Below are positions 4,981 to 34,908 of a stretch of 64,000 nucleotides of DNA, piece after piece. The DNA is from Saksenaea vasiformis B4078 (Eukaryota > Mucoromycota > Mucoromycetes > Mucorales > Saksenaeaceae). Each line of letters begins with the position of its first letter. Position 1 is the stretch's first letter. Location of the stretch: NCBI GenBank assembly GCA_000697055.1, contig JNDT01002287.1, forward strand, positions 1 to 64,000, given 5' to 3'. The position numbers and the translations under genes were made by a program. Under the pieces are notes generated by a model. It worked only from the letters and a program-made list of their open reading frames with translations. It searched no databases and was not told the DNA's origin.

Positions 4981-6029
4981 AACCTCTGCTTACATCCCAA
5001 CGGCAAAACTACAGCAGCTTAAATCCGCGATGGTAGGAGGATGAGATTCCCATGGGTCAATGGGAACTTCGCTGTAGCAGTAACAGCTTGCGGATATGAC
5101 ACATCTATATCCAATGCTACATATTATACAGCCAAGCAGATAGCAACACCTCACTAGCAAACTGGCCATGGCAGTGCCGCAGAGCGACAGGTCAGCCGGT
5201 ATCTGGTCTAAATGTAATGAAGTGACAGGTGCTGCGTCAAGCGTTAATGTACCTGTCTCACATCTGACGCAACTATTAGCGAGCAGCATATCAAATTAGT
5301 CAACGGCGCTTACCAGAGACGTCTTCTCACCGATGTATGAATACGTATAATCACCCTGTTCAACCACACTTTTTTCTCTAAGAACAAAGATGATGGATCC
5401 AAGACGGTCCACCGACGTAACGCGATTTATATACCAAGATACGTGATCCAAAGTGTACTATGCTTGTGGTCGCGGTAGATTGTTGACCTTATCTTATGGA
5501 GCTGGATCTGAAACAGCGATATCTTCTCACTAGGAATGCAAAGCGAACAGCTGGCAAAATTAACTTGTTTTTCAGACACTTCATATCCAACTATCCACAG
5601 AGAAGAAACATGAAGCAGCATGTATGAAAGCTCAAACATCAGTGGTTTCTGTTGGCGTGGATAATACTTTCCTTCCCGCGGTTCACGACGACATGCGGAC
5701 GGCCGACTTCCTAAAAAGGCTAGGCGTGTCAGATGAATGTCACCTTCCGAACTTTTTTTTTGGGGGGGCATAAAAAGCTCGCGATTGATATAGGTGATAA
5801 CAATCGTAAACCTATAAGACAACTAAGGACATTACTAGCATGCAAAAAATCACGTCATACGTCTTTTAGTTCTAGCGGCGTAACAAGTCGATATGGTCAG
5901 ACAAAGAGTCTGAGTATCTATATTAAGCGGGACATCGCTGTTATTGAACAGCCAATGAACTGATAACGATTAAAGCGGATTAGAAATAAAAAAGCCCAGA
6001 GCCATAGTTACATTTTCTTTTCTTTTCCC
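4981..6029. other. Intergenic region between divergent MARCH5-like and AKR genes
   Basis: This interval holds the shared upstream region of the leftward MARCH5-like gene and the rightward aldo-keto reductase. ORFs at 4990-5289 (-) and 5427-5822 (-) have no recognisable domain, and the second contains a T/G homopolymer run (5750-5768) in the opposite strand. The pyrimidine-rich run just before 6030 is a plausible AKR promoter/leader feature. Confidence 0.35.
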
Positions 6030-7131: not shown

Positions 7132-7497
7132 AAGACAAATGACACCATAAGTCTAATGCATAAAAAAGTGTAATTTTGGAAATAGACAACCACAACCTCT
7201 TCGTCAGATCTGATCGTCTAAAAGCATCATCGATTGTACTGTTTGTTGAACAGATTTTAAATAAATTCAATGTCCTAGTCAATTTTGCTCTAAGGAAGGA
7301 ATCGAGTATGCGATCATTAGTAACAAACTGAGAGCGAAGTGATAATGCATCATAAATATTTCAAACTCCACCCAACATCGCCTCACATCCGTTCCGGCTC
7401 GCATTGCCGGACAGTGATATCGCATATGATGGCCATGTAGTCGCAGGAAAAAACGTAAGCTCGTGTTAAATCCAGAAAGATCTTTTTCTTTTACCTG
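7132..7497. other. Intergenic, nothing recognised
   Basis: AT-rich spacer between the reductase and the next coding block. The antisense ORF at 7279-7602 overlaps the start of the next gene and is not supported. Confidence 0.4.
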
Positions 7498-9721
7498 ATG
7501 GACTACTTCAGAAGAAATGCCGCCACTGAATGGGAGCCACAAAAGATTTACGAACGCTACTGTGAAATCTATCCAGAAAAAGATCGAAGCCAGGTCCTTC
7601 AAGCAATAAAGAAAGATCTTGAATTGCTGTCGCTGGAGAACTCACTGATCGGAAAAGCCGCAGCGATGATGGTAACAGACTGGAGAAAGATTTCGGTAAC
7701 AAATAGGATATCATGGAGAATGTTGGCTCACGCCGTGCGTATGCAAATACAGCCGGAGTTCATTTCGAGGACAGATTTACGCGTTGGGAATCCCCCCAAG
7801 CCAAATATTGTGATCAATAACGTGCAAGTGGTCCAGAATCTCGTAGAAATATTATTTACCCTGACTATTTGTTTTTCTGGGATATTTAGTGAAAAGGGCC
7901 TTAGAATCGATCGCAGCAACTTTGGAGACATCAAGTGCATTCTAGGAGATAAGGAAGGTCACAACGTGAATCATTCTGAAAACGCGGTGAGAATTGCTAA
8001 TATTAGGTTGCTCCTAACACAAATACTAACTGATCCTGAAAGTCGAGGGGCAACAAGCATGAAAATGAAGAGGAGATGGTATTTTCCGTGAAGGTAGTCT
8101 GTTTTACATAAATGTGTGGTTACTAAAGTATTGCAGAGACCAAAAGTGCATGAAGAACATGATACTCCGTCTACTTCCACGTTCGAGGTAGGACTGCGGC
8201 TATAATGCTTTTAATCTACATGGTACCAATTGTTATATATTTGTTTCGCAAACAAATGGTATATCTGAAGTCGCTTTACGTTGGTTCGCCGCTCATCTGT
8301 GCAACACCGAGCGATTTGGAACTGGAAGAGCAGATCGAAAGCGTGTGGCAACAATGGAGCGACTTCATGGAGGCATCAAAAACAAATGAAGAGCTCAACA
8401 AGTACAGGTACTGAAGCAAAGTACATGTGTGTATATATTAATATCATAAATCCTAAAAGTCCAGAAAAAGCGGGTGTGATTCAGTGCGGCAATGGCGTCC
8501 ATCATAGGGACAGTTTACCATCAAATCTTTTCGATCAGCTGCAACAAAGGCTTCGTCGAGAAGGACAAGAGCGACGAAACAAAGATGCGCTCTGCAATTT
8601 GAAAGAGTATATTAACGGTGTGTTAGATGCAGTAAGTCTTTGAGTCGGTGCAGTTTTAGTGTCAATGCACCAACGAAATTTTACGTAGGATGTCTTGAAC
8701 ACGATGAAGGATACTGTCAACGCATCACCGAATGGCGAAGACGCACTGGCGCAATTTGTGCAGGACATATTCCGCATTTTGTATGAACGTTATTGTTACA
8801 TATTACAAATATTAACTTCTCATTTTTCTTTAGCAGCGATTCGGTATATGAAGCTGGAAATCCGTCGCTGAATCATACAGAAGTTACCCTGAATTTCTAC
8901 CTTGTCTGGCCCGCAATTAGAGCTTGCACGAGATACATCGCACGCATAACGCATGAGAGGCCTTCTTTTTATCCCGGAGAGGAGAAGCTCACAGCGATCT
9001 CAAGTCAGCTCGCTAAGAGCGAGGCACGCCGAACTGAGCTGTACAATGCTGACGGTGTCATCAGGCTTAAGAACGCCTATGACCTTGAGGTGGTACTCCT
9101 TGAGACCTCTAACGGTCTGGGTAAAGCGGATAGGGCAAAGGTAGCTTTTGATCATATCAAAGGCATGTATGGATCTCTAGCGATGCTGAAAGAAATAGCC
9201 GATTGCTTTCCCTACGGTGATTACGACACGTTTAGCGGAGTACACGTACATTTTCTACATGTACACGGTAAGTTTATGGGAAGACAGCTTTCAGGTAGTG
9301 ACATTGATATTGCTCGAAGGAACGGCAATTCGGCACTGGACCCTAACATCGCCAAAACCAGGTCTATACCTACTTAACAAACAAGCGCGTGTAGAGATTC
9401 CACAGACCTTTGATAGAAAAGCCGACGATCTGTTGCTCTTCGTAAACTTCTTTTTAAATTTCTGTGTAAGTTATATATCTTCATACTGAATACATGAAGT
9501 TGATATTGCTAGCAGCGCATGCTTGAAGAGAGTGGTTTATCCATCGAACGGTTGCGGCGAACTCACCAAGAACGAGCAAGAGAGTATCGATTTTCCTCAA
9601 AACCCCCATATCTCCTCAGCATGGTCGTAAATCCTACCATCGTAAAACTCGCAGAAAAACAGCATGGTCCCCATCTAAAGCATGAAGCCCCAAATAGTTC
9701 GCCAGGAATTTGCTGGGATTG
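7498..9721 (+). CDS. Multi-exon hypothetical protein of an expanded fungal family
   Basis: Coding pieces with clear splice borders run through this block. The start is MDYFRRNAATEWEPQ at 7498. A small exon RPKVHEEHDTPS lies near 8136-8187. Then come exons around DLELEEQIESVWQQW (8310-8408), NLFDQLQQRL to INGVLDA (8460-8632, donor GTAAGT), and DVLNTMKDTVNASPNGED (8689-8779). The largest exon (about 8834-9267) contains YNADGVIRLKNAYDLEV and VLLETSNGLGKADRAK. Later pieces include GLYLLNKQARVEIP and SIERLRRTHQERAREY, ending at 9721. The NADG...LLET pattern recalls a family common in Mucoromycota genomes but of unknown function; that link is from memory, not a search. A diverged copy follows at 11476-13638. 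Exact exon ends in 7700-8310 are unresolved and damage cannot be excluded. Confidence 0.5.
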
Positions 9722-9898
9722 AGTATTTCCCAGTGTCCGACGTACGAATATTGACTTTTTGGGCAGACCAAATAAAAAACAGGCTTGCGTTGGGTTAGAA
9801 GTGACGGTGTGAATTGGTCACATGTTTAATTAAAACATTCCTCAGGTGGGCGGACATCCTCCATGTACTGCGTTTCATGCTGTTATTGTTTTCCTTCC

Positions 9899-10050
9899 TA
9901 ATCAAAGCTGGGTTTACAAGTCGATGTAAGTCCCGCAAACGGGATCATCAGGTATGTGCATCCGATGTTAATAATTACCCACTGACCTTACCAGATTTTC
10001 CAAGCGCGACGCCGACCGTATGCCTTGTCGTCAAACATCCTTTCCATAAT
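9899..10050. repeat. 152-bp direct repeat, copy 1
   Basis: Identical base for base to 10496-10647, 597 bp downstream. It begins TAATCAAAGCTGGG and ends CTTTCCATAAT. Similarity continues, with a ~29-bp difference, through a block containing TACTCTTCTGGTTGGCTAG. The origin is unknown; no inverted termini were seen. Confidence 0.85.
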
Positions 10051-10495
10051 CCTATTGCGCTTAAGAGGTAACTGTATTGAGGGTAGACTGATACTCTTCT
10101 GGTTGGCTAGAACGCGCTCTGCATATGTGGTTCTGTATATCACCCTTGGCGATCAAACTGACTCGATCGTGTCGAACCCTGCGGTCTGTGGAGGGTGTGA
10201 ATGTATCTGCGCGATACTTCAGTCTGTCAGCTAGGCAGCTTCCTTGGTTGATGACATTCAACTGGACATTCAGGCTAGTCTGTGGTCGATACAATGGTTA
10301 AGCAGTCAATGCTCTCGCCTCGTGGACTCGGAAAGGAGCTTCCTGACTGCGGGTCATGGTACATCTGTCAACAAGACAGCTTTTCTGATTACAGAGCCTG
10401 TTGCAGAACGATGTTCCAAGCGAATCGCGAGCATCGGTCTCCCTCATCTATTGTACTTGATGCCGCCTTATTTGACTCTTTTTTTTTTTTTTTTG
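10051..10495. other. Spacer between the two direct repeats
   Basis: No convincing gene. It ends in a 16-base T run (10480-10495) directly before the second repeat copy, which might be a retro-inserted poly(T/A) edge or simple slippage. Confidence 0.4.
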
Positions 10496-10647
10496 TAATC
10501 AAAGCTGGGTTTACAAGTCGATGTAAGTCCCGCAAACGGGATCATCAGGTATGTGCATCCGATGTTAATAATTACCCACTGACCTTACCAGATTTTCCAA
10601 GCGCGACGCCGACCGTATGCCTTGTCGTCAAACATCCTTTCCATAAT
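10496..10647. repeat. 152-bp direct repeat, copy 2
   Basis: Identical to 9899-10050. Preceded by a T homopolymer and followed by a diverged continuation up to about 10710. Just beyond, 10770-10820 carries clustered CCGAACC/CCGTACCG words typical of MITE-type ends. Confidence 0.85.
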
Positions 10648-11475
10648 TTTATTGATGGTGGGCTGATACTCTTCTGGTTGGCTAGGACCCGCTCTGCAAT
10701 GTGGTTCTGTACCGACTTGTTACCATACTGACATTTATACCGACTTTAAAAAAACTGTCAGTAATCGAGCTATTACTGTAAACCGCACGGAACCATGCCG
10801 AACCATACCGACCCGTACCGTTGGCGTTATCGATCATCGAGGGGCCTCTACAATATTGATGGCGTCCTAATCTCGAATAGTGATCTTGGATTTCTTTTGC
10901 TGGTTAGAATGTGCACGGCTTTCAAGATACCATATAGTCGCGTGAGATATCCAGCAAACAACTCCTACATCTAAAATCAGGCTAATCTTATATCCTCCTT
11001 GACAAATGAATTTTATTCAACAAAAAAAAATACTAGAAAATAGAGCAAAGAAAGAAGGGGCAGAGAGGTGTTATTCTCCCTTTAGTTACTTGAGCAGTTC
11101 ACAAGAAAAATGTAGAAAGGAATCTTTCGGATCCCTTGGTCCTTCCATATCAGGGCGGTGCTCATGTCCTTGCTTGCGGGATCCTAATATTGCCCGGATA
11201 CCGCATCTCAGGAAAGCAATATCGATTTCCGGTGGTCCGAGAAATGGGTCGGATCACCCAAGAGTCCCTAAGGCCGTGCAACCTATGGTCCCTTAAAGAA
11301 AACGCAAATATTTCGGCTTTGAAGCTATTCGAAAATGAAAACAACTGTCTGTCACGGGCGGCGCAAAGTCATTCTCAAAAAAATAGTAGTTCACTTCGGC
11401 TGTCCGAAGGAAATCCCGAAGGATATTTCCTTGCCCATAGTGATAGTTTTATATCTCCCAATGCATAGATTTTAG
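10648..11475. other. Intergenic with transposon debris
   Basis: Contains the continuation of the direct repeat, CCGAACC-type repeated words near 10790, and a relic Fanzor-transposon end at 11355-11386 (listed separately). No coding sequence is recognised. Confidence 0.4.
11355..11386 (+). repeat. Relic terminal inverted repeat of the Fanzor/IS630-type element
   Basis: The reverse complement reads CTATTTTTTTGAGAATGACT followed by TTGCGCCGCCC, close to the ends of the 30252-34904 element (CTGTTTTTTGAAAATGAG... and TAGTTTTTTGTACGTGAC..., both then TTTGCGCCGC). A TA dinucleotide (11387-11388) sits at the outer edge. No matching opposite end was found, so this is a solo or decayed end. Confidence 0.6.
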
Positions 11476-12734
11476 ATGTTGTCCACAAGGCTCATTGTGA
11501 CGTGTGCGACCAATAAAATAATGGACTACTTGAGAAAAAATGCTGCACCTGAGTGGGATCTCCAAGAAATTTACGACTGCTACGCTAAAGCCTATGCAGA
11601 CAGAGGCCGTAGTCAGCGCATTCAAGCTATAAAGAAAGATCTTGAATTACTGTCGTTGGAGAGCTCTCTAGCAGGAAAACCGCAGCACGTATGATTAGGA
11701 ACTGGAAAAAAGTATTGGTAATGATCGGGTTGTCATCAAGAATGTGGGCTTAACATCGTGTGTGGAATCTAGGCAAAGCTTGTTTCGAAGGCCGATTCGA
11801 GCTTTAGAACTGACAACTCAGCGGCGGGAAGTCGTCCGGAGTCAAATATCGTGATCAAATATGCAAGTGTTCCAGTATTTTTTAGAAATATTATTGACCT
11901 GAACACCTCCCGTCTTCTGGATATTCAGTGAAAAGGGTTTTCAAATTAATCACGGCAATGGAGATATCAACTGCGTCTTGGGAGACGTCGACAGTCGCAC
12001 CGAGGATCATGTTGAACATAGGGTCAGAATTGTTGACATTAGGTTGCTCCTGATAAGGAGGCTAACTGGTCCTTAAGTTAGGAGTTAATACGCGTAAAAA
12101 CGAAGAAGAGGTACGACTTCCCGCAAAGGTCGTCTATTCGATACATATTTTCTGGGTTCCTAAACTATCGTAGAGCCCAAAAGCGCAAGAACACGATATA
12201 CAATCGAACTCCTCTCTTGAGGTAAAGCCATGATACTCCCTTTTAATGTATATAATACTAAACGTTATCTTGTTTCGGAACATGACATCGACTTTATATG
12301 AAAAGCAGAACGACATTTATAATGAAGAGATTCTGGCGGAATCTGAGGGTGAGTAAGTCAGCCCTGCTTAGAGATGCACGAATAGAAGCTCATGCATAAC
12401 GTTTGTTTAGTAGCAGTCGGGTGTGACGAAGAACGAAGTTAGTGTAGTGAGGTAGCAATATAAAGCGGGGTAACCTGTTGTAAAATTAATACCGTCTAGG
12501 ACATGTGGGATCGTTTACAAGGTTCTGTCGAACACAACAATCAAAAAAATTTCCGTGAAACACTGTACAAGGCAGTATTCAAGACGGTAAGCGGGAATCA
12601 CAGGAATATATCGAGTCAAGATTAGGCCGAGTGCAGATAACACATACGACACTGTAGCTAGGGAAAGGTTTATGCATGAGCGATGTTGCCGAAGTGAATG
12701 CGCTCAAGCAGCGCACTCAATCAAAGACTTGTGG

Positions 12735-13151: not shown

Positions 13152-13764
13152 TTTGTGGAGAATGGTTTGACAGCTTCTCAGCCACTCTTTTATTTACTGA
13201 TCTCTCGAACGACAATACCATGGATCTTTTGAAGTATACCTTTACTATAAATGACATCTGCCCGCTGACATTGCTTATTAATACTTCTAGACTATCGACC
13301 TCACGCATTCTGTATCTAGTTAACGGCAACATGTCGAGCATCTTCCACGAATACTTTCGTAGTGAACCTGTCATGACGCGAACTTGGGATCGAATTGATA
13401 GTATTCAGGTATCAACACGCGGATCTATGAATATAAGTACATAGGAGATGTTGAAGGCTATATTGGAGGTATAGATATTACGTTCATCAAATATAGGCTC
13501 TCTTACAATAGGCTTGGTATTTTCTAGGAGGGCGAGGACGGAAAGTGTCTTGCAGATAAAGCAAAGATCAGAGAAAATATCTGTATGAAGAAATTAGAGC
13601 TGTTACGAGCCGCGGTACAGGATTTGGAATGCATGTAAATGCTCGATGTTCTAGAAGCAGCTGTGTGCGGTTGTGTGGACGCTGATCATACACTCCAAAT
13701 TAACAAGTCTGTGGACGGTGGTGCAAACTCCGCAACTTTCAGTTCATACTTCAAAGTCTTTTGC

Positions 13765-14418
13765 ACTAAAATCGTTTTGAGCTTACCGTAAACGTTTAAA
13801 TGTTTATGCTTTCCAGAAATAAACAAACCACATTCTTGCTGGCGATCTTATGATGAACTACTCAGGTCGACGATATTCCGCTGAGCGTCCGAGCCCACGC
13901 CAGACCGAATTAGCAATGTGATACATTGACTTGGCCGAGTTGTTGCAGACTGTTATACCATGATGGGAGATGCGATCGGCTGTTGCTACCTTGCTCAAAT
14001 CTCTTGTTATGCAAGCATGGCAAACCTAGAGCTAATATTTCAATAACCACGAACATAAAATAAACCGAACCAACCTGAGATGTGTAAAATTCGTCTATGG
14101 TCACCGCGACCAGCTCACCACGACACTTTCTTCTTTTAAGCGTTGGCCATACTTGTTGAACACCGCTGCTTTTTTTTTCCTTTCCACATGCCGTGCCCAC
14201 TCGCACCAAACATCCCGGATCCAAAGACTATCAAGGGAATTTTGTCCGTTGTTCGAATTGAAGACGGATTCCATTTTATTGTTTGCGGATGAGGTTTATT
14301 GACAGTAGATCTCCACGTCGATTCCGTTAGGCTGAAACGGAAGGCTTTCATCAATATCTACACCTATGTATGTATAAGATTACTTAACCAGAGCGCCACT
14401 GCAAACCTTTGGTGTTCC
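13765..14418 (-). repeat. ~655-bp inverted duplicate, copy 1 (Fanzor 3' end)
   Basis: This piece is repeated almost identically, in inverted orientation, at 22344-23005. Only scattered substitutions separate the copies, and they share the A9 frameshift and the RuvC-III deletion. Both end just beyond a TTTACGGTAAGCTCAAAACG sequence. Confidence 0.9.
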
Positions 14419-15325
14419 TTGCGGTTACAATCTCGCCTTTTTCTTTTCTTCCGATTGCGCCTTGTGTTCTTTCTCCTTCCTTTACAGTACTTCTTGCCTC
14501 CATTTACAAGCACATTTACGAGTTCCTCTGAAGCTTGCTGTGTACCTTGGTAGTTTCTAAACCGTGCCGCTGCCATTATAGAATCCATAAACAGCTACTA
14601 ACGTCGGGAAGTTTTCAAGGAAACATGTCACAAATTCATGATGACAGTCTGAAAATGCCGTTTTGTTTGTGAGCAGATTTGTTTCTATCTCGGTAATTCC
14701 CTGTGCATCTTTTTCTTTCTGAAACTTTCTTGCTCTTCTCTCGGAGCCGGTCATTGCGTAGTATTCCTTATTGGGGATCCGTTGTAGCTGATGCGACCCG
14801 GAGCCACTTCCATCTACGGCTGTAAAGACTTGGTTATGCCCCGGATCAAGAGCCCATGGCTCAAAATGACGCTTGACCTCGTCAATGCTGAGATCTTTCA
14901 AGTGCAACGCAGTGCTCGCCACGCCTCTCCTTGCCCTTCTTGCAAATAGTAAATCAACTGTGTATCCATCCGTAAGAACCTTGCAAGCAAACGATGATCA
15001 GGATCCTCAATAAACTCTTCCCAACTACAAATGTATAAAGAAATTATCATAATTAGTAATTGACGCGTTGAACTCTCCAGGTTCCATACCTATTAAATCT
15101 AAAATGGGAGAAATCAAGAACATCAAAGGATACACCAGAGTATTTATTCGGTTGCTGTGGCTTCCTTAGAGAGACGAAGCTGGACATTAGCTCGGCATTT
15201 ATCGATATAAATCGCCATTTTGTATGTGGTGCTGGGAAGACGGAGAAGAGGCGAGGCAGGGACGCATCGTCGGGTTGCTCTTCTTTTATAGCAGGACAAG
15301 ATATATTTCACACTGTAGGGAAGGC

Positions 15326-16934: not shown

Positions 16935-17571
16935 ACTAGGGAGCCGCCAATGCATCGATTTCGCGAGAGGCCGCATGTCAAGTATCCAAAGAAATCGTGG
17001 ATCCAGTAGTCGTCTCCTATTTGATCTTGTTCACTTTCGTTTTATACGATTGTACCTTTTGCCGCCAGATACCAGGACGTTAACCATCTTTCCTTGCTCT
17101 TTGCACCTCTTGATAGCCGTGAAACCTTATCACCGCTCTTCCGGACCGTAGAACTCAAGTACGGGGCTCATATGAAGAAAAATGCACTCCGTATAGTGGT
17201 TATACAATCCGATGTCAGACGTCTTTCCGGATTCCAGAGAGCTCTCAATCTCTTCGACCTCTTGTTCTTTCTCTTCGGCTTGCATCTGTCTATTTCAGTT
17301 CGATGAGCCCATATATGAATAATACTCGTTCGTAGATTATCGTCTTATTTCATAGCATTCATTGTTTTGGCCGTACGCAGCAGTAAGAGACCGACTAATA
17401 CCAGGATCTATGGCACATGGTATGAAATGGTCATATACATTCTCCACTGTAAGATCGTCAATCGAAAGGATCATACCCATGATTGCAACTTCCGGCTTCC
17501 GCGCTCGAGCAAACTGCACACCAATGCTGTGTCCATCACTCAGAACGACAGCCGCGCTACGGGAAAAATAA
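16935..17571 (-). pseudogene. Fanzor fragment, RuvC-I region only
   Basis: Leftward from 17519 the frame reads DHFIPCAIDPGISRSLTAAY, then EVEEIESSLESGKTSDI, VLEFYGPEER and, after a frameshift, MVNVLVSGGKRYNRIKRK. This matches the middle of the intact Fanzor (CAIDPGVRDLFTASYG, IETNFPTGKTSDI, IFDFYGPQDR, LANILINGGKKYN). Both ends are missing. Its upstream edge is cut cleanly by the AT-rich repeat beginning at 17572. Confidence 0.75.
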
Positions 17572-22330: not shown

Positions 22331-22343
22331 TTTTTCTCGTAGT

Positions 22344-23005
22344 GACCGCAAGGAGCAGCAGAGGTTTGCAGTGGCGCTCTGGTTAAGTAATCTTATACAT
22401 ACATAGGTGTAGATATTGATGAAAGCCTTCCGTTTCAGCCTAACGGAATCGACGTGGAGATCTACTGTCAATAAACCTCATCCGCAAACAATAAAATGGA
22501 ATCCGTCTTCATTTCGAACAACGGACAAAATTCCCTTGATAGTCTTTGGATCCGGGATGTTTGGTGCGAGTGGGCACGGCACGTGGAAAGGAAAAAAAAA
22601 GCAGCGGTGTTCAACAAGTATGGCCAACGCTTAAAAGAAGAAAGTGTCGTGGTGAGCTGGTCGCGGTGACCATAGATGAATTTTACACATCTCAGGTTGG
22701 TTCGGTTTATTTTATGTTCGTGGTTATTGAAATATTAGCTCTAGGTTTGCCATGCTTGCATAACAAGAGATTTGAGCAAGGTAGCAACAGCCGATCGCAT
22801 CTCCCATCATGGTATAACAGTCTGCAACAACTCGGCCAAGTCAATGTATCACATTGCTAATTCGGTCTGGCGTGGGCTCGGACGCCCAGCGGAATATCGT
22901 CGACCTGAGTAGTTCATCATAAGATCGCCACCAAGAATGTGGTTTGTTTATTTCTGGAAAGCATAAACATTTAAACGTTTACGGTAAGCTCAAAACGATT
23001 TTAGT
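22344..23005 (+). pseudogene. Fanzor C-terminal fragment, inverted duplicate
   Basis: Near-identical inverted copy of 13765-14418: MMKAFRFSLTESTW, VFGSGMFGASGHG, frameshift in an A9 run, DEFYTSQ, a GT-AG intron, VCHACITRDL, then the same loss of the RuvC-III aspartate. It lacks everything upstream and is not functional. Confidence 0.85.
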
Positions 23006-23858
23006 ACATTCTTCTGAATGTTTCGCCTCCCATCTTGTCCAACTATCATTTGCTATATACATCACTTGGGTAAGTGAGCATTCTTTATTCAGACAAAACT
23101 GTTTTCTCACCATCTCTCCGTATCTCTTACTTCCAGGGCGATGCCAAACTTGCTCTATCGGTTCATGCAAAATTATTTCTGACTTGGCGCAAATTGTTTT
23201 ACAAATCCAGTACATGATTAATTACAATGGTACTGCTTGTTTTCGAAGGGACGAACGTATATATATATTGATGGGAAAGATGCTCCCTCGGGATGCCAAT
23301 TGATGCACCATAAGGTAGTCTCGGCTGACGACAATGGTCGGGACCTTTAAAAACTGAAGCAAAATCGCGCCCTAGATCTTCTTCGGGCAATGGAACCATC
23401 ATAATAGATACACTCATCACGGAAGCGAATGATCTATCCGAAGCACTTCTTTTATAATATTATCCTTCTTGGTGCTCTAGGGAGGCATGTTAAATAATTG
23501 GACAAAGGCACAAAAAAGTAAATCGGGTATTATTCGCCCAATATGTGGCCGTTATTTCATCTTGCGATGTGATGTTTCAGATGAGCCTCATCTAAGAGCG
23601 TCTGAAGTAACTCAGCAAACTTTGAACTGCTAAAGCTGTTTCTGTCGCGTTAAATTTAACTATCATGCACCCATTTATCATGTTGACGCTACAAAATTGT
23701 CTTTCTAAAGTTTTCATCTCGCAAATGGGCATCCAAAATGTGATGTGGTAGCAGCATTGCGGGTTGTAGTTTTGGCGCCAGTAGTAGAAAGAGTCTGAGT
23801 TTGAAGTAGGAAACCTATAATGGACTAAAACAATACACGCTTCTTTTCCTTTTCTCCT
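23006..23858. other. Intergenic, no recognisable gene
   Basis: Only short ORFs without domain signals on either strand (for example 23592-23960, -). The last ~150 bases before 23859 should carry the promoter of reductase copy 2, including a pyrimidine-rich leader. Confidence 0.4.
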
Positions 23859-24965: not shown

Positions 24966-25262
24966 CGCTATAACTCTAAATCTATTTTTTTTTAAAAAAA
25001 ATTATCGCCTTTGAAATACGCGAGATACAGCCACATCCACCCCTTCGTTGTATCCGGCTGTCTAAAAATGTCATTGACTGCTGTTCTACAGAAGGACCTG
25101 CCGCCCGTGACAATTGTTTGCAAACAAGTATCACGAGCGGCGTTACACATTAACTGTTTAGCATCATGTCCATAAAGCATCAAACGAGGACTTAACCGAA
25201 ACGAGCTCTGAAGCGGGAAATCAGTGTCAGTGATAAGAATTTTCGTCACAGATCACAGTACG
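24966..25262. other. Spacer between AKR copy 2 and the Fanzor 3' end
   Basis: No gene. This is where the right end of the Fanzor-bearing element should lie, but no convincing counterpart of the TTTGCGCCGCC terminal repeat was found, so that end is lost or too diverged. Confidence 0.4.
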
Positions 25263-25310
25263 TACCGTAAAAATCTAAACCCTTGCGGGTCCCGCATTCG
25301 CAGCGGTGAT
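25263..25310 (-). ncRNA. Candidate omega-RNA 3' region of the intact Fanzor
   Basis: Read leftward, the end of the Fanzor gene contains ACCC-GCAA-GGGT, a 4-bp stem with a GNRA-type tetraloop, followed by TTAGATTTTTACGGTA (ending 25263). The equivalent place in copy C has a different but still pairing stem (TCCCC-TTTCGA-GGGGA), then TTAGGATTTTTACGGTA. In known TnpB/Fanzor systems the guide RNA scaffold overlaps the 3' end of the nuclease gene and the element's right end, so this is the expected location. RNA expression is not shown by sequence. Confidence 0.4.
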
Positions 25311-28046
25311 ACGGTCGGGGCGACAGAAAGCGCTTGGCCTTCCACCTCCGTCCCAAATAGAATGTGCAATGTAAAACATATTTTTACTGGCATTAACGTC
25401 GCGATTCCACAACATTCCACAGTTTTTACAATCTTGAATGCCGTGATGCTTGACGTTGCCAGTAATCATATTCTGCATGTTCCTCGTTTTACATTGATGG
25501 CACACCTATTGATCATGTCAGACAAAATATTACATGGGTGATAAGTATTTGCCTGTGAGGTAAAGTATTCGTCAATTTTCAAAACCAACGCTTCACCACG
25601 GGCTTCTCGTCTCTTCAAACTTCCCCACAACTTGTTGACTGCTGCTTTGCGATGCCCCTTGTAGCGACAGGTGTTCCCAAACATGCCAACCCCAAAGACA
25701 AGTAAAGGCATTCTTCCACCGTGGCATGGATTTGACTTCGCTGCTTTCCATTTCCTTTTGCGGCACGTCATATTGACCGTGGAGCGTACAGCAGATATCG
25801 GCTGCTCTGGAATCCTGTCATTACACAACGTTTAGCAACCGTTGACTTGATATTTAACAATTTTTCATGTCCCACCTGCCACTGGTTTTCCTCTTGTATT
25901 TCTTGTGTTGCTCACGATTCTTTTTCCTTTTCTTCCTGTTTGTACTTCGATGCTTCCGTTTTCGACGGTTGTATTTTTTTCCTCCGTTTATCAGTATATT
26001 TGCTAGCTCTTCTACTGCTCTCTGTTTGCCTTGGTGATTACGGAATCTTCTTTCCCGGTCTTGTGGTCCATAGAAATCGAAAATTTGATTGTTGTGTATG
26101 AAGAAGTAACTGACTCTTTCGTGATACCGATCAATGTCCGACGTTTTCCCGGTTGGGAAGTTCGTCTCGATAACCTCAATACCGACCAGCTTTTTCTGTT
26201 TTTGCAGTTGCCTGTTTCTTTGCGGAGAGCCAGTCATACTGTAATACTGTTTCGAAGAGCAACGGCGAACTTCATGTTCTGTCTCGCCTGCGCCGTAGGA
26301 TGCGGTAAAGAGATCCCTCACACCAGGATCTATCGCGCAAACGCGGTAATATCTGTCGACTTTCTCCGTGGTAAAGTCCTCCAATTCGAGCTCAACTGCC
26401 TTGGGCTTTGCATCGCGAGCAAATTGGAATACTACACTAAATCTGTCTGTAGATATCTGGTTCGTGAATATACCGCAGTTCATGCTAAATGTAATGCTTA
26501 GCTCCATATCATTGTCACTTGATAATTTCCTGACCTGCGAAAATCGTATTTGTCCAAGTCGAACACTGTATTGAACAATTGCAAATTCCCGTCATAGTCG
26601 TCGGTATTGCTGCGGATGTGAAGTAGTGACTTCATTGCCTTTGCGTTAAGTGTAACGAAGCGAAAGTGAAAAGAAGGTTGTGGAGCTAAGGAGAATAACC
26701 TAGGCAATGTCTCCGAGACCTCGTCGTCGCTTTGCTGGTGCTCTTGCTCGTATTCCTTCAATATAGCATACAACACCGGGGCGCACGTTCCAGGTTGTTC
26801 CGATAAGGACTCGAGTGTACATACGCTGGGCATGAATGGCGCAAGAAAGTCGCGGACTTGAATGACTGCCAAGAACAACTCGAGGGAGATACGCCCCATG
26901 TTTGTTGGCCAACTAGGCTCACCATTAGCAAGGTCCTCGTATATATAGTCATAAGCTATTTGGCTGGCAGATGATTTTGATAAGTCCTACAACGGAAAAT
27001 AAGAATGTCAATGCGACAGATAATTGACGTCTATAAAACCTACCGGAACGAGTTTTTGCAGTCTGTGTATGATAAAGCCACAAACCCTTTGTTGAAAATT
27101 CTCGACCACGTCATTGGTATATGACTCCTGTAAAGTGGAGCAAGCTGCCGCGAGGGCATCGCTGTAACCGCTAAATTCATTCCGCGGGAAGACAATACCA
27201 GGATGACGCTGACGAAATTCATTCCAATAACGAAGTACGTTCTCAGGCATGTGTGGATTATCGTTCGAAACCGTAACATCCATGACTAGCTGAGCGATAG
27301 AGTACCAAAAGGACTGCGAGTAAACGTATGTAGGTATTGTTGCCTGTCCATATGTAATAATGTACGCGTTGACGTATAACTGCGTGCGTACAATTACGTT
27401 TCGAATAAACGTTGACATTGCTTCAATCCGACTTTGTAAACTATCTGCAAATTCTGGGCGTGCAATGCTTGAAAGCGGTAACTTCCGCGAAAAGCGCTCG
27501 TGGTTGTTGCCAAGACTTGTTTTCAGAGTTTCTTTAATGGATGGCTTATGGCCTGGACACTGAGCAGAACGTGCAGATGCGTGTTCCAGAGATCCACACG
27601 ATGTACAGTTGCTCTGCCTACGAAGGGGATTGGTGTTTACAGCATCCTTAGTCAGACGTCCTTTTTTCTTCCTGATTTTTTCGTCTTCAGTGCTGATTTG
27701 TGTCGCCTTATGTTTGCCAGCTAGAACAGAGCGCAAAACCGATGAGAAAGTCAAAAGCTATTGATCAAGCTACTAACCACGTTTGCTGGGTTCATGGAGA
27801 GGACATTTTTTGTTGGTTCTCATCTTGTGACCAGCTTCACCGCAATCACGACATACAACTTTGACTTTATTTACATGCATATACTATATAGTCTGATGAC
27901 ATACCTTCACTGACAGCTTCCTCTTGTTTTTGTTTTTTTTCTGCTTTTTTGAACGCTGTGTATAGTAATGGCGGATAAACAATGATGCTTGCTGAAATAA
28001 ACATAGCCGAGAGCAGTTCAATGAAGTCGTACATATCTGAAAGCAT
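25275..28046 (-). CDS. Fanzor (TnpB-like RNA-guided nuclease), apparently intact
   Basis: Seven exons (28046-27905, 27858-27778, 27720-27044, 26986-26535, 26484-25876, 25814-25553, 25505-25275) total 2454 nt, 817 aa, with no frame breaks. Residues ~8-32 are hydrophobic. Zinc knuckles follow: CRDCGEAGH...C (50-66) and CTSCGSLEH...C (113-129). A helical recognition region runs ~140-450. RuvC-I Asp503 is in CAIDPG. A highly basic arginine/lysine stretch lies at ~620-650. Glu736 is in KIDEYFTSQ. Cys743/746/767/770 form the zinc site, and Asp777 is in WNRDVNASKN. This D/E/D plus CxxC layout is that of Fanzor proteins, which cut DNA guided by an omega-RNA. The last intron (25506-25552) uses a GC donor. 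A broken DDE transposase lies upstream on the same strand. Confidence 0.88.
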
Positions 28047-28439
28047 TATGATTAAAAAAAAGAAAAAAGGGAAGAGTGTAGATGAAGAAAAAAGATGTAT
28101 TCCGAATTTTGGTCCGGTTTTTGCTTTTGACAACATTTTGTATCTCACATGCAGTCACCTTCTGGTTAGGAGCAGAACAGTAGAATGGACGTCAATTGCT
28201 CATTGTTAAATAAAATAATTATGTTTTTGTCGATGTAATACAGAAACAAAGGAATACACAGTAAGTCTCGCCTGGTATCAATGGCGCTGATTCCGAGAAG
28301 TTAAATGGATCACGCAGACAACAGAGTGATTACTGGTTAAAGCAATCTGATCTCGTCGTTTTGTCTACTGACTCAAATTCAATCCATAAGTTATTCATCT
28401 GCTTTTAATCCGTTTCTCCTAATACCAGCTTTTAACTCT
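28047..28439. other. Fanzor upstream region
   Basis: Probable promoter of the leftward Fanzor. It should also contain the missing catalytic half of the upstream transposase, which is not recognisable. A short segment (28270-28330) loosely resembles 5S rRNA but not convincingly. Confidence 0.4.
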
Positions 28440-29600
28440 GACAAGATGTCTTCAATAACATCGCGAACAGCGCCTGATCCGTCAATTGGTGCCTGTCCTC
28501 CACCTCTATCCGGTAACTTCATCGCCTTCATTCGATCAATTCAACTACTGACCCTCTGTGCTTCCTTTTCATTAAGCCTCCACTCTTCGGATGCAGCACT
28601 TATTCCAGTTTCTTCAAGGATATATCTATTACTCCAGCCTCAGATATGGTGCCTAATACAGTAATCATAATTCCTTTCCAGTTGGTATAGTGCCTTTCGC
28701 TGCAGTTCCGTTCGCACAACGACCAAAATTTCTTTGCGTATGCAAGTAAAACTAGCTCCATCGATAAAAGCGCGGTTCTCAGTGAAGTTTAAGACTTGCA
28801 TTGTTTCTCATTGAGCAACTTTATCCTTTTGCAAAGTTATCACCCCGTCATAACTCCTTGCTGCAGGAACCTCTTTCAAGTTTTCGAACATTACATGACT
28901 TTTATTGACACTGTCTTCAGACGTCTCTCATATCAGATCCTTTGTATATCAGTCAGGATAGAACGGGATTTCTGTCGATGTAATCTGCAAGAAACTGGGA
29001 GTGAGCTTCAGTCGGCTTCCCATAACATCTAGTACGACGCTTTCTGTGAACACCAGGTAGACACTGTTCTTCATCCCGGTTGTATGTTTCGATATAATTT
29101 TGAGCCGTTCGCACATCTATGCCTGTGATAAGCGTTGCTTTCTTTGCTGTTCATTCTTCTTCAATCACCAAATGAAATATCTTTTCGATTTGCTGCGGGT
29201 GTATTTTCTATAGGAAGCTCTCGTTCTAGCTTTATGCTCACGCTACACACATAGTCTGTCTGGAAAGTGGATAAAGCCTGTTAAGCTTTCATCTCTGTTA
29301 TCCTCAGCAAATATTCAGGCTTCTGTCAATGTACGCATTCGCATAAGATTGATGTCTACATGACTACCTCCTTCCCGCCATCTTTCAGTTAAAACGGATG
29401 GATTTGAGCGAGACAGTTCTGCCCACTCGTTTTGTGTATCATCCGCAGACATATCAACATCCAGTAAGGTGACATCATTTACATTCGATGGAGCGCCATC
29501 AGCCTCCATGTGTTCACATAAAGCGTTCATATCGAAGAAGTGAAAAATGAGTTTGCTACCAACCTTTTCTTTGCAAATGACTGAGTTCATGCAACGCAAA
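28440..29600 (-). pseudogene. IS630/Tc1-type DDE transposase remnant, upstream of intact Fanzor
   Basis: The frame starting at 29599 contains LTERWREGGSHVDINLMRMR, matching ILGEDWRESSSHVNNAFVRM in the transposase at 33480-34760. Nucleotide similarity continues to about 28440, including stretches equivalent to the helix-turn-helix region and the first catalytic region. Many stops are present and the second half of the catalytic domain is missing. It sits in the same place and orientation relative to a Fanzor as the other copy. Confidence 0.65.
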
Positions 29601-29642
29601 ATTCATTAGCAGCCGGCGCAAAGTCACACGCAAAATCAACTA
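29589..29642 (-). repeat. Left terminal inverted repeat of the second Fanzor element
   Basis: Read leftward from 29642 it begins TAGTTGATTTTGCGTG then TGACTTTGCGCCGG and, further in, ATTTTGCG. The corresponding end at 34904 begins TAGTTTTTTGTACG then TGACTTTGCGCCGC and AGTTTTGCG. This marks the transposase-side end of the element that carries the intact Fanzor. Confidence 0.65.
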
Positions 29643-30138: not shown

Positions 30139-30251
30139 GGTGATTTGGAGGAAAAAAGGGAACAGGAAAATTTCAAAGAATAATGCCTCGCCCCTTCATT
30201 AACAGCCAAGCCACCTGTCAGTTCTGTCTTCAATCACATTTGCCCTCATTA

Positions 30252-30297
30252 CTGTTTTTTGAAAATGAGTTTGCGCCGCCTAAAATGACTTTTTGCG
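30252..30297 (+). repeat. Terminal inverted repeat, Fanzor-side end
   Basis: 46 nt matching 34859-34904 in reverse at roughly 70% identity with no gaps. The central TTTGCGCCGC is perfectly conserved. Confidence 0.75.
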
Positions 30298-30379
30298 TCA
30301 TACGAGAACTTACCGATGCGAACACCTAAAAGATCGATCAGTTAAATTGTTCTAAGCTTCACCTATCTCATGACAAGCT

Positions 30380-30440
30380 TACCGTAAAAATCCTAATCCC
30401 CTCGAAAGGGGAACCCGTGTTCGTTACGATGATTTCTTTT
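30380..30440 (-). ncRNA. Candidate omega-RNA 3' region of Fanzor copy C
   Basis: Just past the stop codon, leftward, is AACACGGG, then a TCCCC-TTTCGA-GGGGA hairpin, then TTAGGATTTTTACGGTAAGC. The hairpin differs in sequence but not in pairing from the one in the intact copy, which suggests selection on RNA structure. The element end lies 128 nt further on. Confidence 0.4.
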
Positions 30441-33199
30441 CATTGTGATCGTGGCCTTGAAAAACGCTGTGGTCTTCCTTCTCCGGCCCAGATCGACGCG
30501 GAAATTGCGAACATATTCTTACTCGCATTGACATCCCTCTGCCACAACATTCCACAGTGTTTGCAAACTAGAATGCTATGACGAGGGGCACCGTCCACTG
30601 TAGTCACCTTTTCCAGTGTTCGATTATTGCAGTTGTGACATATCTATGAACAGCTTTAACGTCCTATTCGATGTATATAGTGGTATCTGAGATGTCAGAT
30701 ATTCGTCCATCTTCACTGCAATTAGTTCTCCTCTCCGTTCTCTTCTTTTTAACGTCTTCCACAGCTTCCCTACAACTCCTGACCGGTGACCTTTGAACTT
30801 CATGCCGTCCTTCCCAAACATAGCATCACCAAATACTATTAACGGCATCTTGCTTGTCTTTTCATATACTGAAGGTTTCCACTTTCTTATGCCTTTGCAA
30901 CGAGTTAGCGATGCTCGCATTGCTGATATGGGTGGATTTGATCTACTAGCAATCCAGCCAGGTTAAACAAGTTTAGTCGGCTATTCATACCTGTTGCTTT
31001 TTCTCTTATCTTCTCGTCTCTTGCGGTTTTTCTTTCGCTTTTTACGGTTCCGCTTGGTATGCTTCTGCCTTTTCCGATTATATTTTTTCCCGCCTGTTAC
31101 CAATATGTTTGCCATCTCTTCAGCCGCCCGTTGGCGACCCTGGTAATCGCGAAACCGTGCTTCGGCCCTTGATGGCCCGTAGAATGCGAATAAGACGTTC
31201 AGATGTCGAAAAATGCAACGAACGTAGGTATTGTAAGATTCAACGTCTTGTGTCTTCCCGGTCTCCAAATCTGTCTCGATTGCTTCAATTCCAGCTGCCT
31301 TCTTTTCCGATTGAAGCTTTTTTTGTCGCAGTGGTGACCCTGTATACGTGTAATACTCCCGCGTAGAGCATCTTCGGGTTTCATGCGGGTTCCTTCCATC
31401 TCCATATGCCGCCGTGAATACTTGTGATCGTCCAGGATCAACAGCGCACGGTTTGAAATGGTCATTGACTTCTTGAGTGAAGTCTCCAGGAGTCAGCTCT
31501 GTGTCCAGAGTTTCCAGTTCAGCCTTCTTCGATTTTCTTGCAAACAGAAAATCAACTGCAAATCCATCCGAATTGATCTGGTTCGTGAACATGGTCCCCT
31601 TCTCGGCTGCGGACTCTTTTAGCTCGTCAAGACTAGATATCTCTGAAAGTCAGTTTCTTCTCTTATCTTAAAGAGCTATTACCTCGCGTATCCTAACTTC
31701 TTGAAGTTAAAGATAGTGTGAAACATGGTGAGATTTTCATCATAATCCGCTCCGACTGACAACGGTGACAAACACGCTAAAGCTTTCGCGTTAATGCTTG
31801 CAAACCGCCAGTGCAAAGACGGTAACGGTGATAGGCTGAAACGTCGGGGAAGGTTCTCGTCTGATTCCTCAATATTTTGATATTTCTTCGTCGTATGATT
31901 GTAAAATGTGAGCAAGCGTTGGAATGAACTTTCCTGGTGAAGCGGATATCGCCTCGGCTGTGGCGGGAACAGGGATGATATCAGACAACTCCTCGCAAAT
32001 AGAGATTACTGCATTAATAATATCCGTGGAGATAAGATCGATAGATGAAGGCCACTGAGAGTCTCCACCGGCAACTTGTTCATAGATGTATTCCGAAGCG
32101 ACGGCTTTGGCGGAACCATTGGATAGCCTCTGATAAAATAAAAAGCCAAAGCTGCATTAGTCTTTCTTTACGAACTTCGCTGTGCATACCGGCACTGAAG
32201 CCTTCAGTTTTCGAAATCCAAACTGAACAACACGATTTTCGAAGTTTTCGACAATGTTATTCGTGTACGTTGTAGCCAATGTTTTACATGCAGCTGATAA
32301 AGAATCACTATACCCAGAGTAGTGGTGCGCAGAAAAAACGATCTCAGCATGTTGTAGCCGGAACTCGTGCCAGCAGACAAGAATATCACGGGGCATGTTG
32401 GGGTTTTCGTTTGTTATAGTTTTCCCCATGACCAATTGGCACACGGAATACCAGAACGCCTGTGTATAGATGTACGTGCTTATCTCTTCGTGAGCATGAG
32501 AAACGATATACCCATTGACAAATATCTGTGCTCGGAATATGACTTGTCGCAGGAAACTGCAAAGATTGACGATATTTCGTTGGACTTGATCGCGATAGGC
32601 CGGCCGGATCACGGATTCAAGTGGAAGCTTTCGAGTATATCTTTCGTGATTTTTGCCCAATTCGTGGACGATTCTTTCTTCCATTGTTCTTCGATGATTT
32701 GCGCACGCCTTTGACCTAGACGAGGAATGGTCTTGCGAACCACACGAAGGACATGGGGTCAGACCAGCGTTCGGGTTTCTTGAGCTTTGACCCCTTCTCG
32801 ATTCGTCCTCTTCTTTTTGCTTGCGAATGTTCTTTTTCCTCCATTTCTGTAAGTTTTCTTTTCTTCCCCACTGTGGTCCGCCTGTGAGCGATCTGTGCAT
32901 GTTAAGGATTTTCTCCCTACCACGATCTCTGCCAAAATCCTTATTCAATGGGCATGTTTTGGATCTTTTCGTTTTGTGCCCTTCACCCGCACAGTCTTTG
33001 CATATGACTGTTTGAAAATATACATTAATGCGAACGGTTGAGATAGGTATTGCAAGCTTCGTTTTCGTTTTTCGTTTTCTTCTTTTTCTTCAGCAAGTTT
33101 TATTGTCTTTTTTAGGAGCACAAGTATGAATGTAACGTTTATAAAGATATCGATAGAAGCAAGCAAGATCTGTGTTAACGTCAGAAAGGGTGGAAGCAT
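30440..33199 (-). pseudogene. Fanzor-type nuclease copy C, lightly damaged
   Basis: Architecture is the same as the intact copy. Exon 1 (33199-33058, 142 nt) is hydrophobic (LTLTQILLASIDIF...FILVLL). A zinc knuckle CKDCAGEGHKTKRSKTC and a second CPSCGSQDHSSSRSKAC follow. The recognition region includes TYTNNIVENFENRV. RuvC-I is CAVDPGRSQVFTAAYGDG, then an Arg/Lys-rich stretch, VFGDAMFG, KMDEYLTSQ, ICHNC, CKHCGMLWQRDVNASKN, stop 30442. Damage: one inserted base near 31870 breaks the frame in the recognition region, and the last intron starts AT instead of GT or GC (…TCTCAG|ATACCA). The first intron (33008-33057) has a GC donor. All three catalytic acids are still encoded. Confidence 0.8.
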
Positions 33200-33479
33200 G
33201 GCATAGAGGGTGGTGAAGATGAAACGAAAGAGAGATGAGGGATAAAATCAGAAAATGTCGTCAAAGCAGAGACATCAAATTAGACTCGTCACAACACTGT
33301 ACTTTGCTTAATTAACCGCTTCAAAACGTGGGCAGTCAAAGACAACAAAAAAGTATCATCCTTCAATAAACCGTATTGTTAGGAATACCTACAAGCTATT
33401 GCTTCACTTTACCAAGCAATAAGGTAATGAAAAAAGGTCAATGTAAGAACCTTATTCCGGTGTACCGATCATTACTGCT

Positions 33480-34760
33480 CAGGTGACAGCTATGATGTTT
33501 ACCCTCATCGTTCTCGTTCTTCATTGGTGGTATGATCCGGTCACTTTGTTTACTGAATCACATATTCGATCTGCAAGTCTATCCTTGGCTCTCAGAATTT
33601 TTGCTGATACTGGCTTTTATCTTGGACAGGAGCCCGTCAACGGGGGGTCAAGTACAAACATTTATAGCCTCTGGTCTCAATCAGTTCGCGAACGATTGTT
33701 GGAGTATATATAGGAGAATCGTCCATCACGATATAATGGGGCTTCACATCAGCATATCACTTGCGTTTGATATACAAGTCAGAAGACGTTCCATTCTTGT
33801 ACCGACCCGGCCATTAACTGTCATCGCTTCCTTTTCATTAATCCTCTCTTTTGGACACAAATGCAGTCTGAGACTTCCTTACAAATATATTGACCAGATA
33901 TGGCACCTAATATAGTAATCGTAATTACCTTGTGTTGGTACAGAACTCCTTACGGCTGTTTCCCTTTGAGTATGCGAATTGAAAACAGTTCTATCGATAA
34001 ATACAGAGCTCTTAGTGAAGTACAAGGATTGTACATTTTCCCACTCTTCGACTTTCCCCATTCGTGAAGTTGTCGCTCCATTAGAATTCCTTGCTGCAGG
34101 AAGCTTTTCCAACCTTTTGAGGATTATACTGCATTTATTGACTAAACGTCTATACAATACTGATTCGGAGATAGTCAAGTCTTCAAATGCTTTACAAAGT
34201 CCTTTCTTTATGTCAGTTAGGATAGCAGTCGGGTTCCTGTCAACGTAATCTTCAAGAGACTGGGAGTGAGCATCAGTTAGCTGACCATAACATCTAGTAC
34301 GAGGCTTCCTTTGAACCCAGGTAGACGCCTTCCTTCATCCCGACTGTATGATTTGATATAATGTTGAGCAGTTCGGACTTTTATACCCGTAATCAGCCCT
34401 GCTTTCTTTGCCATTCGTCCTTCTTCAATCGCTAAATCAAACAGCTTCCCTATTTGCTGCACAGTATATCTTCTGAATGATCCTCTTGCTCTAGCTTTAC
34501 TCGTCTCTTTACGCTTTTCTTGTGTGCGTGGTCTGCTTGGAAAGGGAACAAGGCCTGTTAAGCGTTTCTCTCCAGCATCCTCAGCAGATGATCTAGAATC
34601 TGCCAATGTGCGCATACGCACAAAGGCATTATTCACATGACTACTACTTTCCCGCCAGTCTTCGCCCAAAATAGCTGCGCATGAATGAGGCAATTTAACC
34701 TGTTCATTCGGTTCATCATCCTCAAACAAAGTAACATCATCTATATCTAACGAAGCATAT
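33480..34760 (-). pseudogene. IS630/Tc1-type DDE transposase, decayed
   Basis: The N-terminal part (34729 leftward) has a helix-turn-helix-like FRRYTVQQIGKLFDLAIEEG followed by KVRTAQHYIKSYSRDEGRRL. Then come LEDYVDRNPTAILTDIKKG, SVFIDRTVFNSH (first catalytic Asp kept in FID), PHYIVMDDSPIYTPTIV (second Asp, near 33730), RGYKCLYL and, after a frameshift, SKIKAS and DRICDSVNKVT. The NPIE-type third acid region is lost in a frame break. The order and spacing are those of IS630/Tc1-family transposases. It cannot be active. It lies just inside the element end at 34904. Confidence 0.75.
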
Positions 34761-34858
34761 TCTTCGGAGGAGAGCGGGCAATCTCAGCGGAGTTGCTATA
34801 ACGCAAAATGTCCCTTGGCATTGATTCCCAGCCAATGTAGACTTTGTCTATTGGTCAG

Positions 34859-34904
34859 CGCAAAACTTCTATCCAAGCGGCGCAAAGTCACGTACAAAAA
34901 ACTA
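34859..34904 (-). repeat. Terminal inverted repeat, transposase-side end
   Basis: Partner of 30252-30297. The outer edge is followed by TA (34905-34906) and then, two bases later, by the ATG of the next gene. Confidence 0.75.
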
Positions 34905-34908
34905 TAGC

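Follow-up and report, generated by a model that had tools for sequence, protein, structure and literature searches.

A Fanzor1-type nuclease gene beside a decayed transposase in a TA-flanked Tc1-type transposon group of Saksenaea vasiformis

TnpB of the IS605 and IS607 elements promotes retention of its element by a cut-and-copy process. The eukaryotic elements compared with the present one include PGv-1, HMa-1 and two PUl elements (PUl-1 and PUl-4), the PUl elements being presumably from Pythium. As far as the available text of Bao and Jurka 2013 (PMC3627910) goes, Fanzor1 genes occur together with a transposase in Tc/mariner elements and also in Fanzor-only elements with mariner ends; PGv-1 is found in an algal virus, HMa-1 in a virus-like Hydra contig, and the Fanzor elements of three Mucorales fungi are of the MuDr type. 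Mariners are listed with Fanzor1 in the accessible portion of PMC10711439. This portion and that of PMC10432273 name TnpB of IS605/IS607, and the latter discusses copying back by repair for both TnpB and Fanzor; it also reports no transposase between the ends of Spu-1. Described here is a Fanzor-carrying transposon in Saksenaea vasiformis B4078, located in positions 1 to 64,000 of contig JNDT01002287.1. This whole 64,000 nucleotide stretch is termed the window.

The window element is one copy of a multi-subfamily Tc1-type transposon group. The account that we consider probable is that of a TA-inserted group arranged as 5′ end, transposase, Fanzor1, RNA scaffold and 3′ end, whose members would now be moved in trans by the transposases of relatives and whose Fanzor would be selected through a cut-and-copy transmission advantage. 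The Fanzor would bind an RNA from the 3′ end of the element, with a guide copied from the flank, and would cut an empty or sister target site. Repair would copy the element back into the cut site, and the transmission advantage to the element would keep the nuclease gene under selection. The element, its borders and its transposase are as follows.

30252-34904, genes on the minus strand: Fanzor-carrying transposon, 4,653 bp, flanked by TA and bounded by imperfect inverted ends
30250..30251, no strand: left TA target-site duplication, read from the sequence
30252..30297, no strand: left inverted end, 3′ of both genes, which in gene sense ends ...CAAAAAACAG followed by TA
34859..34904, no strand: right inverted end, 5′ of both genes, placed from the sequence and from other ends
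34905..34906, no strand: right TA target-site duplication, read from the sequence
33539..34729, minus strand: pseudogene of a Tc1-type transposase; its open homologue is the 465 amino acid (aa) DDE_3 protein of C150

The inverted arms, at 30254-30297 and 34859-34902, are 44 nucleotides (nt) long with a complementarity of 75%. Inverted ends were also sought automatically by local alignment, which yielded noise and was discarded. TA is present at 30250-30251 and at 34905-34906, therefore the borders 30252 and 34904 given in an earlier note on this DNA are exact. That note had described inverted ends with TA at both borders and, on one strand between them, a transposase followed by a Fanzor; the arms match, and both genes are placed inside the ends on the minus strand. 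It had also spoken of the element as decayed. This is correct for the transposase, which has decayed in each of the five long copies, but not for the Fanzor, which is nearly open in the window copy.

The end pattern, with up to 3 mismatches, has 159 matches genome-wide vs 19 for the reversed control. TA is found at the exact offset in 22 of 27 distinct 5′ ends and directly follows 8 of the 9 distinct 3′ ends that were located via the core sequence; a further nine 3′ ends, of which 8 have TA, were placed partly with the CAG-TA reading described below and thus give no independent test of TA. The genome searched comprises 38.7 Mb in 666 contigs, and the copy search with element DNA scored 40 of 138 candidates, hence the copy number is a lower bound. 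At least five near-full-length copies, 95–96% identical, are present at unrelated sites (C569, which is the window copy, C561, C380, C441 and C267), and their flanks are all different. Both ends are kept in C569 and C561. C380, C441 and C267 have the right end, with 30–47 bases gone at the left, which is the Fanzor side. In five further copies that are cut by contig ends (L014, L015, L019, L031 and L033) the 3′ part of the Fanzor extends to the left end. All five long copies enclose both the transposase and the Fanzor.

The properties of the IS630/Tc1/mariner group are all present, i.e. TA duplication, terminal inverted repeats and a DD34E DDE transposase, the last in the open relative C150. 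The earlier assignment to the IS630/Tc1 type is borne out by the two two-ended copies, the one-ended others, and diverged subfamilies with the same ends and gene order. That the Fanzor is part of a TA-flanked IS630/Tc1-type element is therefore supported.

The Fanzor1-type gene has short spliceosomal introns. Its exon limits were inferred from homology and GT-AG borders.

30440..33029, minus strand: entire Fanzor1-type gene
32949-33029, minus strand: exon with the zinc knuckle
32157-32948, minus strand: exon
31682-32033, minus strand: exon
30981-31592, minus strand: exon
30675-30920, minus strand: exon
30440-30643, minus strand: exon with the C4 zinc finger and RDVNASKN

The window Fanzor has 1 frameshift in 641 compared residues, and one of its 5′ splice sites is AT instead of the GT of the seven other copies aligned at that point. 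The C-terminal zinc finger together with RDVNASKN matches PF07282 above the cut-off. The Fanzor1 motif, given in the available text of PMC3627910 as D-X(125,275)-[TS][TS]-X-X-[C4 zinc finger]-X(5,50)-RD, is found in the window exons as CAVDPG, TSQ-ICHNC..CKHC and WQRDVNASKN, with the spacing counted on the joined, inferred exons. The motif D and RD are invariant in alignment A4 (4/4) and in alignment A2 (5/5). In profile searches of solved structures the best match of the window-clade profiles is SpuFz1 (9.4e-6 with the RuvC-I profile and 7.3e-5 with the C-terminal profile, these being built from four and five loci, respectively); no Fanzor was among the solved-structure matches of the N-terminal profile or of two single exons. 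Thus the window nuclease is of the Fanzor1 type, and RNA-guided cutting by it is predicted. Among the matches listed, the sole Fanzor relative of the joined exons is P0124 of Apophysomyces ossiformis, which is annotated as hypothetical and is 45% identical over 428 aa. Therefore this Fanzor clade exists in another Mucorales genus. Among the matches listed there is no copy above 60% identity in this genome.

A block of 54 positions, conserved between subfamilies, is found directly after the Fanzor stop codon or overlapping it. The block and the putative splice features downstream of it are located as follows.

30378..30433, minus strand: conserved two-hairpin RNA block, candidate omega-RNA scaffold (covariance model, 69 bits)
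30326..30382, minus strand: putative intron 1, from the scaffold towards the element end (GTAAGC...TTTTAG)
30314..30325, minus strand: putative 12-nt exon GTGTTCGCATCG
30252..30313, minus strand: putative intron 2, for which CAG at the end of the element, followed by TA, would act as 3′ splice site

The RNA alignment (A1) has 14 of about 30 clade 3′ ends, near-identical rows and the broken loci L057 and L062 having been left out. For the two hairpins, which were named from the same 14 rows that were used for the covariation test, 91.8% of cells are paired vs 79.3% in shuffled alignments (0 of 500 as high) and 30.6–54.9% when the structure is slid. Changes on both sides occur in 7 of 10 pairs (8 of 500 shuffles as high), and further pair types are not raised (497 of 500 shuffles). 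RNAalifold gives the same two helices, shorter by one pair. Folded singly, the sequences do only slightly better than shuffled ones (z -0.98 to -1.69), which by itself is no support for an RNA.

The covariance model finds four blocks in the window, the two known copies and two that were not used in building it, 22924-22988 (plus strand) and 13782-13846 (minus strand). Each of the latter is directly 3′ of another Fanzor fragment; they are near-identical inverted copies (98.5%) and therefore count as one. In 50 further loci the model has 8 matches, all within this clade: L048 and L050 are in the model, L052 and L059 are near model rows, and L045 and L049 are truncated at contig ends; more independent are L046 (49.4 bits) and L053 (69.5 bits). 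There is no match in the other-clade Fanzors or transposase-only loci searched, in L057 and L062, or in the C492, C150, C208 and C389 stretches. A search of the window with Rfam also gave no match. The block is thus a candidate guide-RNA scaffold for the Fanzor.

A splice-donor-like GT, sought within 30 nt, follows the block in all 16 elements examined, five of which are one family; others are close relatives. Its forms are GTAAGC, GTACGT, GTTAGT, GTAAGT and GTGAGC. The GT may mark an ordinary intron of the 3′ untranslated region, and its constant presence is one of the points in favor of reading the block as an mRNA element, e.g. a signal that acts on the splicing or the stability of the Fanzor transcript, rather than as a guide scaffold. 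The block is also partly coding in most subfamilies, and the folding of single sequences is weak. We regard this alternative as unlikely, however, as there are compensatory changes in two helices and all model matches in the further loci are confined to this clade. In addition, the covarying helices would represent a structured RNA at the 3′ end of a nuclease gene, which is the position of the known omega-RNAs according to the available text of PMC10432273.

If the block is a guide-RNA scaffold, a guide taken from the flank directly beyond the border would be separated from it, since the scaffold is 131–291 nt from the end with GT...CAG-TA between them. A second GGTAA is present 56–107 nt past the donor-like GT, and the element end is 131–291 nt on. 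The last three bases are CAG at 8 of 9 core-located 3′ ends vs 1 of 27 mirrored 5′ ends (Fisher 2.6e-6); this contrast was chosen after inspection of the data, and seven of the nine 3′ ends are one family. A wider count of CAG, 16 of 18, includes nine ends that were located partly by the CAG reading itself. One may suppose that the spliceosome makes the guide RNA, i.e. that one or two introns are removed and that CAG-TA at the border is the 3′ splice site which joins the scaffold to the flanking guide. This is a tentative and rather doubtful proposal, its odds being lowered because the CAG test is post hoc, one family is dominant and ends were located by the CAG reading. If true, the transposon end would serve both the transposase and the spliceosome, and any element with AG at its border could adopt a Fanzor. 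No report of a spliced Fanzor guide was found in the available literature, subscription papers being outside the search. By eye, the RNA loop could pair with the putative 12-nt exon, and ACCG with CGGT across the block; neither pairing was counted.

The window has a lone 3′-type element end at 11360-11390 that reads ATAG-TA, with no recognizable gene inward in 5500-11500. This end, at about 11.39 kb, ends in TAG-TA and is outside of both CAG counts. Another Fanzor clade with its own ends is represented by L064-L069. L064, L065, L066 and L068 diverge directly after GTCAGGTGACTG followed by TA, and L067 and L069 have variants of this end. The clade displays a donor-like GTAAGCC about 50 nt before CAG. 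A splice-like junction 7 nt short of the border may thus solve the same problem in a second way.

The open transposase relative in C150 has 465 aa and matches DDE_3 with an E-value of 1e-25. Its catalytic residues are D266, D372 and E407, where 34 residues separate the last two. This is the DD34E arrangement, the spacing of Tc1 transposases. Named relatives of the transposase include those of Rhizopus, Mucor, Parasitella, Circinella and Phycomyces. Together with the intron-like gaps in the genes, they indicate a Mucoromycota-like fungus. In the window family the region around the third catalytic residue is absent in all six copies read there, and the window copy is a pseudogene that has no third catalytic residue. 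The five long copies display 7–9 transposase lesions each, including four frameshifts common to all. In the neighbour subfamily, which consists of seven copies (the alignments of two stop at residue 317), a stop at 340, a stop at 427 and a frameshift at 433 are common to the five copies whose alignment reaches there. Because lesions are common to copies within the window family (family A) and within the neighbour subfamily, the transposase appears to have died before these copies spread, if not in a strict sense.

A working transposase in the same element, as expected of an autonomous Fanzor-mariner, was found in none of the 16 Fanzor-bearing elements tabulated (2–17 lesions each), and those of L039 and C492 are likewise broken. 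The closest to autonomous is C492, where the transposase has 3 frameshifts and 4 stops and the last Fanzor exons are absent in the examined stretch. C150 and C208 were considered as intact Fanzor-free helper elements. This idea was dropped because both contigs stop about 2.0 kb past the transposase and because C492, 95–96% identical to there, continues into a Fanzor. The gap between transposase and Fanzor in C492 (L074) is about 2.6–2.8 kb, and it is its first 2.0 kb that has this identity in C150 (L075) and C208 (L076). Antisense open frames in the stretch common to all three may represent a third gene.

The two genes display opposite fates. Lesions, i.e. frameshifts and stops, were counted with a frameshift-tolerant alignment, and the totals are for 15 elements, without the neighbour element (the source of the Fanzor query), L039 and C492. 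The transposases have 130 lesions in 5,215 residues (2.49 per 100) vs 25 in 9,127 (0.27 per 100) for the Fanzors, and the transposase is the more lesioned gene in 15 of 15 elements, although these are not independent because the copies are related. Outside of the totals, L039 has 1 lesion in 89 Fanzor residues (one exon only) and 15 in 357 of the transposase; C492, which is split over two loci, has 7 lesions in 465 transposase residues and 1 in 438 of the Fanzor. Transposases without a listed Fanzor (L030, L034, L035 and L036), 72–76% identical to the query, have 1–5 lesions, but as a control they are partial because they are nearer to the query than the transposases of Fanzor elements (52–67%). 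Fanzors that are 44–49% identical to their query have 0–5 lesions.

The pooled ratio of nonsynonymous to synonymous differences (pN/pS) of the Fanzor is 0.247 (7 copies) and 0.428 (5 copies), and that of the transposase is 0.728 and 0.653. The contrast of synonymous with nonsynonymous changes in four element pairs has P = 0.0056, 0.010, 0.0004 and 1.5e-7. Since pN/pS is 0.25–0.43 for the Fanzor vs 0.65–0.73 for the linked transposase, and the lesions are fewer, the Fanzor looks selected beside a dead transposase, as judged from these substitution and lesion patterns. The earlier note had proposed that the nuclease helps its element to persist; we infer the same, and selection on the Fanzor next to a dead transposase backs it.

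Several observations weigh against this. The transposase pN/pS is 0.65–0.73 rather than 1, and individual Fanzors are lesioned too, with 0–5 lesions per copy. The Fanzor pair WN-L047 displays no contrast (0.62, P = 0.16), and the transposase pair WA-L010 has a value of 0.49 (P = 0.027). Synonymous divergence (dS) is discordant between the two genes: in the pair WN-L047 it is 0.028 for the Fanzor vs 0.227 for the transposase, and in WN-L045 it is 0.217 vs 0.050. The discordance among WN, L044, L045 and L047 shows that segments have been exchanged between elements and suggests that these are mosaics produced by recombination, and thus “after the transposase died” is not strict. Such exchange could also help to keep the Fanzor intact. 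An open-frame transposase on one contig with a complete Fanzor was not seen, and in this genome the flanks of the window copy, when joined, have no match other than themselves, i.e. no empty site was found.

These data bear on a further explanation, in which the Fanzor is a passenger of no benefit to the element, recently captured or homogenized by gene conversion. The exchange of segments is consistent with it, and so is the fact that most Fanzors are not near a listed DDE_3 match. A general association of Fanzor with DDE_3 was in fact tried and rejected, as the 137 PF07282 rows and the 150 DDE_3 matches listed, of 157 in total, form only 9 pairs within 8 kb. However, decayed transposases escape the DDE_3 profile and therefore this count is too low. 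Open Fanzor exons recur across subfamilies that are about 45% identical to each other, and the difference in pN/pS between the linked genes requires protein-level selection beyond exchange. We consider a mere passenger quite unlikely. Segment exchange complicates the interpretation of selection on the Fanzor and does not replace it.

Gene order was analyzed with 57 end places, 83 of 145 Fanzor rows and all 101 transposase rows; the search for the transposases scored 91 of 531 candidates. A transposase is present within 4 kb of 26 Fanzor rows, and in 24 of these (C267 occurs twice) it is on the same strand and 5′ of the Fanzor; 57 entered rows have no transposase within 4 kb. In the other two the transposase is on the opposite strand, and one of them, C146, has an extra same-strand transposase piece upstream of the Fanzor. 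The same order recurs in diverged subfamilies. An inward 5′ end is located 1.6–2.03 kb upstream of the Fanzor N-terminal exon in 17 of 21 elements and 2.7–3.4 kb upstream in the remaining 4. Nesting is found in this genome, at L042. Nevertheless, a Fanzor element inserted into a Tc1 element, i.e. two transposons with separate borders, is highly improbable here in view of the gene order shared by many subfamilies, the regular position of the 5′ end, the extension of the Fanzor 3′ RNA block to the Tc1 end, and the next longest inverted repeat within the window element, which is only 30 nt at 73%. The nested case, L042 (C576:1-4500), displays an open 352-aa Tc1-like transposase frame between the RuvC-I and C-terminal parts of an other-clade Fanzor.

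A Fanzor row is found inward within 5.5 kb at 23 of 47 genome ends that have at most 1 mismatch. The remaining 24 comprise 2 with a transposase row only, 7 with too little contig and 15 with no listed gene. Five of these 15 were inspected; all are 0.45–1.46 kb from a contig end, and three have transposase fragments. Among the other ten there may be shorter relatives of the element that have no Fanzor. The possibility raised in the earlier note, that the ends belong to a shorter element without the Fanzor, does not agree with the 23 near-exact ends that have an inward Fanzor, and separate borders of the Fanzor, also raised there, were not found.

The window contains a second transposase-Fanzor element. 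Its Fanzor is about 44–55% identical to that of the first and therefore belongs to a different subfamily.

25230..29642, minus strand: second transposase-Fanzor element; left end not found, TA at 29641-29642 with the 5′ end below it
28382-29530, minus strand: its transposase remnant, from homology
25314-27874, minus strand: its Fanzor exons, with no lesion in the parts used as query
25261-25310, minus strand: its RNA block, from the covariance model

Besides the two elements there are three Fanzor fragments in the window. Two of these, 13762-14428 and 22342-23008, are 667 bp in length, 98.5% identical and inverted, and each consists of a Fanzor 3′ part and the RNA block. The third, 17010-17546 (minus strand), is a further decayed fragment.

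The findings bear on the question of why eukaryotic transposons keep an RNA-guided nuclease. Here many Fanzor elements are present in one genome, and the transposase is still readable beside a nuclease gene of opposite fate, which suggests that an element whose transposition is supplied in trans profits from its own nuclease. The block with the covarying hairpins is a concrete candidate for the guide RNA. Apparently new are the constrained Fanzor beside a dead transposase, the covarying 3′ RNA block and the scaffold that is apart from the element end. In the literature that was open to the search, subscription papers excepted, no report was found of such a fungal group, of opposite gene fates or of a guide apart from the element end.

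PGv-1, PUl-1, PUl-4 and HMa-1 likewise combine Fanzor1 with a mariner-like transposase within a single TA-flanked element, as described in the available text of PMC3627910. Unlike these, the present elements are a fungal DD34E/DDE_3 group with several subfamilies, dead transposases, a Fanzor that appears constrained and a covarying RNA block. Spu-1 of Spizellomyces punctatus, which encodes SpuFz1, is likewise a fungal multi-copy Fanzor1 element with inverted ends and a 3′-end RNA (Saito 2023, PMC10432273, as far as the available text goes); in contrast to it, a transposase is present here, though decayed, and the scaffold is 131–291 nt from the element end. PpFz1 of Parasitella parasitica is also a Mucorales Fanzor1, with a guide that starts near nt 50 of the RNA according to the accessible part of PMC11423790, and it is absent from the solved-structure matches of the window-clade profiles. 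TnpB of IS605 and IS607 is likewise an RNA-guided nuclease that would favor the retention of its own element. Those elements, however, are single-strand or serine-recombinase elements, whereas the Fanzor of S. vasiformis is carried by a double-stranded DDE transposon inserted at TA.

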